Shown here: positions 37,344 through 39,044 of the stretch, in pieces
Layout: each line of letters opens with the position of its first letter
How positions within the stretch are numbered: the stretch's first letter is position 1
Source of the DNA: Candidatus Woesearchaeota archaeon
GTDB lineage: Archaea; Nanobdellota; Nanobdellia; SCGC-AAA011-G17; JACPIM01
Assembly: GCA_018302125.1 (NCBI GenBank)
Contig: JAGWAC010000004.1
Coordinates: 1 to 53,974 of the forward strand
DNA length: 53,974 bases
Direction: 5' to 3'
The notes under the pieces: model-generated
What the model saw: the letters and a program-made list of their open reading frames with translations, nothing else
Databases searched by the model: none
Told to the model about the DNA's origin: nothing
Made by a program: the position numbers and the translations under genes

Positions 37344-38057
37344 TCACTTTTGTGCTGTTATAATAGCTTCTAAATGTTTACGGAAAATTCTTTTTATTTT
37401 TTTAAAACCTATTTCCTGCATTAATTTCTTTTGTTCAGGTTCTGTCATTTTTCTATAGGGCTTTTCATCCTCTAAATAATGATTAACCCATTCTTTCTTT
37501 AAATCTGGACGTCCAATTTCTTCAAATTTATCAAATTGCTTTAATTGCCAGTCTGAATGAATTTTATCTTTCTTTTCATTTCCGAAATAATATTTATCTG
37601 AATTAATAAAAAATCCTCTGTTTTTCAAACACCTGTAAATTTCTCTTAAAACTTCTTCTCTATAATTTCTTTCAAAATTATGTAAAGTAAAAGCAGAAGC
37701 AAAAGCATCAAAAGTTTCATCCTCTACAGATTTAAGATATTTTATAGCATTATTTAGAACAAATTTAACTCTCGGGCTTTCAAAATTAAATAATCCTAAA
37801 GAAATTCTTGCTTGTTCTATCATTATTTTTTCATTATCTACTGCAGTAACTGAAATTTTCTGACTTGCTCTTAAAATTCTGCCAGTTGTATGGCCTGTTC
37901 CACAGCCTATTTCTAAAACTTCAATTATCCCATTATTTTTTATAGAATACTCAAATAATTTTTGTTCAATTATGTTTTGTAAATCTTCATAATAGGGACA
38001 AATTGATTTAAACAAGTCATAATCTTCTCCGATTCTTCCTGAAAATCTTTTATTCAT
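37344..38057 (-). CDS. class I SAM-dependent methyltransferase
   Basis: 237 residues. Motif I is VLEIGCGTGHTTGRIL near residue 48, then TAVDNEKIMIEQARISL and FDAFASAFTLHNF with HNF at the catalytic-side loop. The region before its ATG is a decayed recombinase reading in the same frame, so the first residues (MNKRF) may be a junction product. The substrate is unknown. It lies immediately inside a probable tRNA integration site and may have arrived by transfer. Confidence 0.8.
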   Translation of the reverse strand: MNKRFSGRIGEDYDLFKSICPYYEDLQNIIEQKLFEYSIKNNGIIEVLEIGCGTGHTTGRILRASQKISVTAVDNEKIMIEQARISLGLFNFESPRVKFVLNNAIKYLKSVEDETFDAFASAFTLHNFERNYREEVLREIYRCLKNRGFFINSDKYYFGNEKKDKIHSDWQLKQFDKFEEIGRPDLKKEWVNHYLEDEKPYRKMTEPEQKKLMQEIGFKKIKRIFRKHLEAIITAQK

Positions 38058-38225: not shown

Positions 38226-38283
38226 ACAATATGCATAGTTCTTCCTTCTATTTAAATAAAATGGAACTACGCAAGTAGTATAA

Positions 38284-38402
38284 CGCCGCGACCCGGATTT
38301 GAACCGGGATGCCTTTGCAGGCCAGGCTAACTAGATTTTTTTCCAGGCCTGTGCAATCTCCTGAATTTTTTCAAAGAGTTTACCAGGTTATGCGATCGCG
38401 GC
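38284..38402 (-). tRNA. tRNA-Ser (anticodon GGA) with two probable introns
   Basis: Acceptor arms GCCGCGA/TCGCGGC pair perfectly, with discriminator G73 as in archaeal tRNA-Ser. The T arm is CCCGG-TTCAAAT-CCGGG, and a class II variable arm GCCT-GCAA-AGGC lies at 38311-38322. The anticodon stem is CAGGC/GCCTG (38347-38351 and 38323-38327). Its loop is 19 bases, CTGGAA plus 12 extra, giving anticodon GGA with an intron after position 37. The D arm has a typical AACCTGGTAA loop but contains an extra 21-base hairpin (38358-38378, CTC...GAG). Removing both insertions leaves about 86 bases, normal for tRNA-Ser. Confidence 0.65.
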
Positions 38403-38441: not shown

Positions 38442-39044
38442 CTATTTTTCTCCTAAAGTTAAAATGGCAAATAAGCCAATTCTTTTTTGTTTTATCACTT
38501 TTAATTTGTTTTTCTCAAAAGCTTTTTGAAATTCTTTTTCATTATAGATTTTTACATGTCCTGGCTCTATTTTTTTAAATAACCAATGAATAAAATTAGA
38601 GTAAAAATTTATGTCTGTAATAATTAATTTTCCTTTCTTTTTTAAAACTCTTGACATCTCTTTTATAGCTTTATTGGGATTTGGAAAATGGTGGAAAGCT
38701 TCTGTATTTATTACATAATCAAAAAAGTTATTCTCAAATTGGATTTTTTCAACATCACTGAATTTTAATATTGCTTTATTTCCTAGCTTTTTCCTAGCTA
38801 TTTTTAACATATTTTTAGAAATATCTATGCCAAATAATTTCAATTTTTGATTTTTATTATATAAATAAATTAAGCTGTCACCAGTTCCACAACCAACATC
38901 TAAGATTTTAATATTATCTTTTAATTTTATCTCAACAACAGTTTTCTTCTGTATATATAATAGCCAGGGCTTTACAAAAAAAGAATAATCATAGAATCTA
39001 GCCCATAAATCAAAAAATCTTCTATTGATCTCTTTTATTTCCAT
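38442..39044 (-). CDS. class I SAM-dependent methyltransferase (UbiE-like)
   Basis: 200 residues. Motif I is ILDVGCGTGDSLIYL near residue 48, followed by GIDISKNMLKIARKKLG and FDYVINTEAFHHFPNP, the Methyltransf_11 pattern. The start shares one base with the stop of the SHOCT gene (TAATG), so the two are translated together. That places the enzyme in the metal island; a role such as metalloid methylation is possible, but the three-cysteine set of ArsM is absent. Confidence 0.78.
   Translation of the reverse strand: MEIKEINRRFFDLWARFYDYSFFVKPWLLYIQKKTVVEIKLKDNIKILDVGCGTGDSLIYLYNKNQKLKLFGIDISKNMLKIARKKLGNKAILKFSDVEKIQFENNFFDYVINTEAFHHFPNPNKAIKEMSRVLKKKGKLIITDINFYSNFIHWLFKKIEPGHVKIYNEKEFQKAFEKNKLKVIKQKRIGLFAILTLGEK

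Follow-up and report, generated by a model that had tools for sequence, protein, structure and literature searches.

Can a serine tRNA gene that is interrupted twice, in the anticodon loop and also in the D-arm, still give rise to a working tRNA? This question is raised by a class II tRNA-Ser(GGA) gene on the minus strand (38402-38284) of a 53,974-nt stretch of DNA from a Woesearchaeota archaeon; the whole stretch is called the window below. We consider it very likely (probability about 0.9) that this is a functional gene of a Woesearchaeota (DPANN) archaeon, whose transcript would carry two introns of the type removed by the splicing endonuclease EndA.

Structure and recognition of the tRNA-Ser(GGA) gene

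The precursor gene (38284-38402; minus strand, as are its exons and introns below) is 119 nt long including the discriminator G73. It has the acceptor stem GCCGCGA/UCGCGGC, U8, a D-arm, a perfect T-arm, a 5-bp anticodon stem, the anticodon GGA (38342-38344) and a class II variable arm with 4 bp. Exon 1 (38382-38402, tRNA positions 1-20) contains the 5' strands of the acceptor and D-stems and the D-loop to U20, and is identical in uninterrupted relatives. It is followed at position 20/21 by a D-arm intron of 24 nt (38358-38381), AAACUCUUUGAAAAAAUUCAGGAG, which is absent as a unit from the orthologues. Exon 2 (38341-38357) runs from A21 to A37 with the D-stem 3' strand, the anticodon stem 5' strand and the anticodon. 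A second intron of 12 nt (38329-38340), AAAAAUCUAGUU, is found at position 37/38, and exon 3 (38284-38328) continues from A38 to G73 with the anticodon stem 3' strand, variable arm, T-arm, acceptor 3' strand and discriminator. Exact matches to the 5' 21 nt in named genomes were nearly all labelled Candidatus Woesearchaeota.

ARAGORN reported no tRNA in the raw window, nor did Rfam at its gathering score. By E-value, the sole Rfam match in the window was a weak one to the SpF41 sRNA (E 0.81), a resemblance in the T-arm. The 119-nt precursor also gave no call by ARAGORN; the form spliced in the D-arm was found as tRNA-Ser(gga) only with introns allowed, and the 83-nt product was called tRNA-Ser(gga) directly. 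A solver that excises bulge-helix-bulge (BHB) introns and scores the resulting cloverleaf gave, as its top solution, removal of the 24-nt D-arm and 12-nt anticodon-loop introns to leave an 83-nt tRNA-Ser(GGA). This product is a canonical tRNA by ARAGORN and matches the uninterrupted relatives; the exon borders and the anticodon are those of the solver and ARAGORN. The two insertions that the sequence-only reading had seen in a tRNA-Ser(GGA) are confirmed as real by the stems, the anticodon and the ARAGORN call after their removal. They are not group I introns: the window has no Rfam match to one, and at 12 and 24 nt they could not accommodate a ribozyme.

Splice motifs of the two introns

With 24-nt borders, the D-arm site forms an exact 3-4-3 BHB. 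The central helix has 4/4 Watson-Crick pairs between CCUG in exon 1 (38384-38387) and CAGG at the 3' end of the intron (38360-38363), flanked by an outer helix of 3 pairs and an inner helix of 2 pairs. The predicted cut points are GU^A and AG^A, and A14, GG and A21 are all in place in the spliced D-loop. Position 20/21 is noncanonical for an intron. An uninterrupted relative (G017, L021) reads GCATAACCTGGT/ATTGCAC (the slash marks the junction) and is exactly 24 nt shorter at this point. Two further introns at the same D-arm site also end in CAGGAG/A and are otherwise different in sequence: a 78-nt intron in the Ser(TGA) gene of the same genome and a 33-nt Ser intron in a woesearchaeon of another isolate (L081). 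Of their first two bases the second varies (AA in Ser(GGA) vs. AG and AC in the Ser(TGA) and L081 introns), whereas CAGG is kept. Descent or conversion may link the Ser(GGA) and Ser(TGA) D introns, which belong to one genome; the L081 intron is the more independent case. A search of 103 genomes of the order for inserts of 14-44 nt between AACCTGGT and TTGCRC yielded the window locus as the only D-arm intron on reading, the other matches, taken as a set, being read as coding or other tRNA regions. L081 is absent from this search and came from the separate exact matching of the 5' 21 nt. Scanning viral sequences with the D-intron pattern gave unrelated sequence only.

The 12-nt anticodon-loop intron, already proposed in the sequence-only reading, occupies the canonical position 37/38. 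Its central helix CUGG/CUAG has 4/4 pairs including one G-U, its outer helix 5 pairs; the inner helix has 1 pair and closes in a loop, which makes the site a relaxed bulge-helix-loop (BHL) type, with predicted cut points AA^A and UU^A. The missing full second bulge and inner helix count against splicing of this intron by EndA. Several relatives likewise have introns at 37/38 of tRNA-Ser, and introns of 13-14 nt were solved in other tRNAs of the same genome.

A central helix of 4 bp, flanked by 3-nt bulges and reaching across both splice sites, was taken as the mark of a BHB intron, and both introns possess it. Shuffled D inserts formed a 4-bp BHB at the exact site in 0.7% of cases, all Watson-Crick in 0.17%, and with an inner helix in addition in 0.03%. 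For shuffled anticodon inserts the exact-site 4-bp BHB appeared in 1.0%, and none of 600 double shuffles equalled the observed spliced-tRNA score. The minimum-free-energy fold of the precursor (-48.9 kcal/mol) contains a different D-arm hairpin, in which the first two intron bases are paired. The BHB form reached -35.0 kcal/mol as the written-out structure and -44.5 kcal/mol in a constrained fold, 4 to 14 kcal/mol weaker than the minimum. Because the free-energy minimum favours the other hairpin, the predicted D-arm BHB would need protein or cotranscriptional help.

Interrupted tRNA genes in the same genome and its relatives

The genome that contains the window (G000; 829 kb, 33 contigs, 97% complete) has D-arm introns in at least 12 tRNA genes, detected by the solver or by a direct BHB scan: Ser(GGA), Ser(TGA), Ala(GGC), Ala(TGC), Glu(CTC), Glu(TTC), Ile(GAT), Val(TAC), Arg(CCT), Arg(GCG) and two Leu genes. 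The D-arm introns of the Ala, Glu, Ile, Val, Arg and two Leu genes have 4-bp central helices. Arg(GCG) allows two alternative D-arm borders, and the two Leu D introns were checked by hand; apart from these Leu introns, some long precursors for which the solver gave ambiguous results (Leu, Tyr-like C9 and C20) were left uncounted. The Ser(GGA) D-arm intron is one among many near the same D-loop site in this genome. T-loop introns were found in Ser(TGA), Glu(TTC) and Ala(TGC), a variable-region intron in Ile(GAT), and two anticodon-arm introns each in Lys(CTT), Lys(TTT) and Ile(TAT). The Ser(TGA) gene (L035; G000:C13:23295-23547, minus strand) has three introns, of 78 nt in the D-arm, 42 nt at 37/38 and 50 nt in the T-loop. 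All three have a 4-bp BHB central helix, and the spliced form is tRNA-Ser(tga) by ARAGORN.

About 30 of 39 listed Ser genes or gene fragments of this and related genomes are interrupted, in the anticodon stem, anticodon loop or T-loop; D-arm introns of the Ser(GGA) type were seen only in the present genome and in L081. In many tRNA-Ser genes of other Woesearchaeota (L070, L075, L077, L079, L089 and L093), additional sequence is inserted close to the anticodon stem on its 5' side, following GCGCAG, GCGCTG or GCACAG, which is a second frequent noncanonical position in the order.

Standard tools miss the Ser(GGA) gene and probably many others in Woesearchaeota. Since interrupted genes escape them, the tRNA sets of Woesearchaeota genomes may be reported as incomplete.

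Functional gene or alternative explanations

For a functional gene we propose the following route. BHB-type sites with a 4-bp central helix and 3-nt bulges in register would be recognized at both introns by the EndA of the same genome, which is full-length and retains the Y/H/K catalytic residues. EndA would cleave each bulge after the second nucleotide and a tRNA ligase would join the exons. Exact excision of both segments gives a canonical class II tRNA-Ser(GGA) in agreement with uninterrupted relatives, and the 83-nt product would decode UCC/UCU.

A decaying or pseudo tRNA-Ser with random insertions would need a working Ser(GGA) gene elsewhere, in an assembly gap or as an interrupted copy that escaped detection. 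An intact second Ser(GGA), with this copy unexpressed, was named in the sequence-only reading as evidence that would speak against the interrupted gene; no second Ser(GGA) was found in the genome, nor were Ser(GCU) and Ser(CGA). The absence of a second copy is supported rather than proven, because the failure to detect these two shows that the serine search was incomplete. Incomplete tRNA detection, in a genome about 97% complete and divided into 33 contigs, leaves some room for a pseudogene. However, all stems and invariant loop bases are intact, both insertions have in-register BHB sites, many other tRNA genes are interrupted alike and no other Ser(GGA) was found, so that we regard decay as unlikely.

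We find it very unlikely that the anticodon intron alone is excised and that the D-arm segment is retained, which would give the mature tRNA an enlarged hairpin in its D-loop. Such retention would agree with the stable hairpin that the precursor keeps in its D-arm at the free-energy minimum, but the insert lies exactly at a BHB site, orthologues have a normal D-arm, and two introns of other lengths share the same site and the same 3' end. The D insertion had also been drawn in the sequence-only reading as 21 nt (CTC...GAG) forming its own hairpin, with 33 bases removed to leave an 86-nt tRNA. Its suggestion of a BHB site holds, whereas size and helix had to be revised: the intron is 24 nt at 20/21, the helix is CCUG/CAGG, and removal of 24 + 12 nt leaves 83 nt. 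ARAGORN accepts the 86-nt form as well, but 21-nt borders allow 1/4 central pairs and no outer helix, the orthologues differ by 24 nt, and in the 86-nt form the D-stem is weakened and the D-loop has three A too many. The shorter borders are hardly credible.

A dispersed palindromic repeat in tRNA introns

A palindrome-plus-tail repeat of ~28 nt (consensus AAACTTTTnnnAAAAGTTTAATCAAAA) is dispersed in the genome. Exact matches to the pattern CTTTTnnnAAAAGYTTnAnCAAA numbered 51 in this genome, 61 in G002 and 14 in G004, with 0 or 1 in each of eight other genomes and 0 for reversed controls. At least eight copies (8/51 exact matches) lie within tRNA introns of the own genome, where ~1 would be expected if introns make up ~1.2 kb of perhaps 80 kb noncoding DNA (a rough estimate, the 80 kb being assumed). 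The introns concerned are the D introns of Arg(GCG), Ala(TGC) (antisense), Ile(GAT) and Ala(GGC), the D and T-loop introns of Glu(TTC), the T-loop intron of Ser(TGA) and the anticodon intron of Gly(GCC). An antisense copy is also present in the Ser anticodon intron of a Woesearchaeota-like genome (L073). The Glu(TTC) D intron is common to G000 and G002, whereas the T-loop intron is present in G000 and absent in G002. Outside tRNAs, many copies immediately follow a stop codon or precede a start codon, as judged by eye. The repeat also occurs in G002 in tandem arrays with a 34-nt period; occurrences include several contigs of G000 (e.g., L170, L179, L126 and L225), G002, G004, L073, L077 and L093. 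The 24-nt D intron of the window starts with AAACTCTTTGAAAAAA and consists of AAACTCTTTGAAAAAATT + CAGGAG. By this likeness it may be an eroded copy of the repeat, but it is too short to say.

We tentatively suggest that tRNA introns of this Woesearchaeota family arise by insertion of the ~28-nt repeat, in either orientation, at D-, anticodon- and T-loop sites, and that even BHL introns are excised by a single EndA of alpha type, which lacks the known specificity loops. It is possible, though doubtful, that repeat-driven intron gain is, as part of this joint reading, an archaeal tRNA analogue of introner elements. If the repeat seeds introns, it would provide a concrete DNA-level route of tRNA intron gain, and insertion differences between related genomes could be examined.

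The splicing endonuclease

The same genome as the BHB introns encodes a splicing endonuclease: one detectable alpha-type EndA of about 190 aa with N-terminal and catalytic domains (PF01974, E 1.3e-29; PF02778, E 1.6e-12; TIGR00324 above cutoff). Its best solved match is the Nanoarchaeum equitans EndA chain 3iey_A (E 2.8e-35), and the Methanocaldococcus jannaschii enzyme (1a79) is also close; the alignment to 1a79 is almost gap-free, with the active-site Y, H and K kept. Epsilon2 EndA is a three-unit protein of about 395 aa with an ARMAN-specific loop. The present protein is not of this type, having ~190 aa and no counterpart of the 4fz2 insert around Y160-K161 (ARMAN-2). A second EndA subunit was not found in the genome. 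At the gene level the enzyme therefore fits the alpha4 type, for which one EndA gene of alpha size and the absence of a second subunit are expected, a very divergent partner being possible. Across the order Woesearchaeales (n = 103 genomes), one EndA was found in 95 genomes, two in 1 and none in 7; one of these 7 (G005) is listed as 100% complete.

Published work links relaxed specificity with particular loops of (alpha-beta)2 and epsilon2 enzymes, alpha4 enzymes cutting canonical BHB only (PMC4033280, PMC12397907), and homotetrameric EndA is described as requiring strict BHB sites (PMC4033280). The strict D-arm BHB would fit an alpha4-like enzyme; the 12-nt BHL intron has no obvious fit as judged from its predicted site. 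We infer that the alpha-type EndA may have been relaxed by another route, or that it may have an unrecognised partner. In a published co-evolution model, multiple noncanonical introns go with endonucleases of the heterotetrameric or epsilon2 kind (PMC4033280). A direct test of that model is offered by an order that combines one alpha-type EndA per genome with many D-arm, T-loop and very short introns. This broader context, with its single EndA, its many D-arm introns and its introns that bear a repeat, merits more attention than the single gene.

Sequences flanking the gene

A 35-bp 3' flank (38249-38283), TATTTAAATAAAATGGAACTACGCAAGTAGTATAA, contains the hairpin ACTAC-GCAA-GTAGT, and an identical flank lies beside Ser(TGA) in G002. 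Together with the 3' part of the tRNA (to 38313), it has 98% identity over 65 nt to that Ser(TGA) flank (G002:C86; L020, L085). G002 belongs to a different genus and its flank lies at a locus with unrelated neighbours; each genome has one copy. The flank may be a conserved element or may mark an old integration (att) site. A scan of viral sequences with the 3'-flank element gave unrelated sequence only. The tRNA lies between two related methyltransferase genes (37344-38057 and 38442-39044, minus strand; 26% identity over 160 aa, Pfam methyltransferase domains).

Comparison with known tRNA introns

Multiple introns per tRNA have been described in Crenarchaeota, N. equitans, two Euryarchaeota, Korarchaeum and ARMAN (PMC4033280). 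The tRNAscan-SE 2.0 survey counted 673 noncanonical introns in 217 archaeal genomes, with Woesearchaeota unmentioned in its text (PMC8450103). By title and abstract, the open-access literature searched gave no work on Woesearchaeota tRNA BHB introns, which allows only a partial view of priority. The BHB introns of Ser(GGA) are of a known kind, in an order not named in the tRNA-intron literature covered.

N. equitans is also a DPANN archaeon, and its EndA (3iey_A) is the best solved match to the present one; its enzyme is of the (alpha-beta)2 type and it has split tRNAs (PMC4033280), whereas no second subunit was found here. ARMAN (Micrarchaeum) is likewise an ultrasmall archaeon with noncanonical introns (PMC12397907, PMC4033280), but the EndA described here has about 190 aa and no insert at the place of the ARMAN-specific loop.

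The statement in the sequence-only reading that D-arm introns are rare outside some Crenarchaeota was too strong, as they also occur in Caldiarchaeum subterraneum (PMC3293823). That lineage is a different one, and there intron gain is put down to the integration of mobile elements rather than to short palindromic repeats. For the D-arm introns of Sulfolobus tokodaii tRNA-Glu, which have BHB-like borders as here, cleavage at the predicted sites was shown in vitro with the cognate EndA (PMC4307357). S. tokodaii is a crenarchaeon; our case is the tRNA-Ser of a woesearchaeon, in which a further predicted intron interrupts the anticodon loop. In Thermoproteales, BHB introns occur at several positions, up to three per gene, and similar introns in different tRNAs were read as intron transposition (PMC4033280, PMC8450103). 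The genome studied here resembles them in both respects and differs in belonging to a DPANN order with a single detected alpha-type EndA, and in having at least eight introns with a repeat whose copies are likewise scattered outside tRNA genes; in one of these introns the repeat is antisense to the tRNA.
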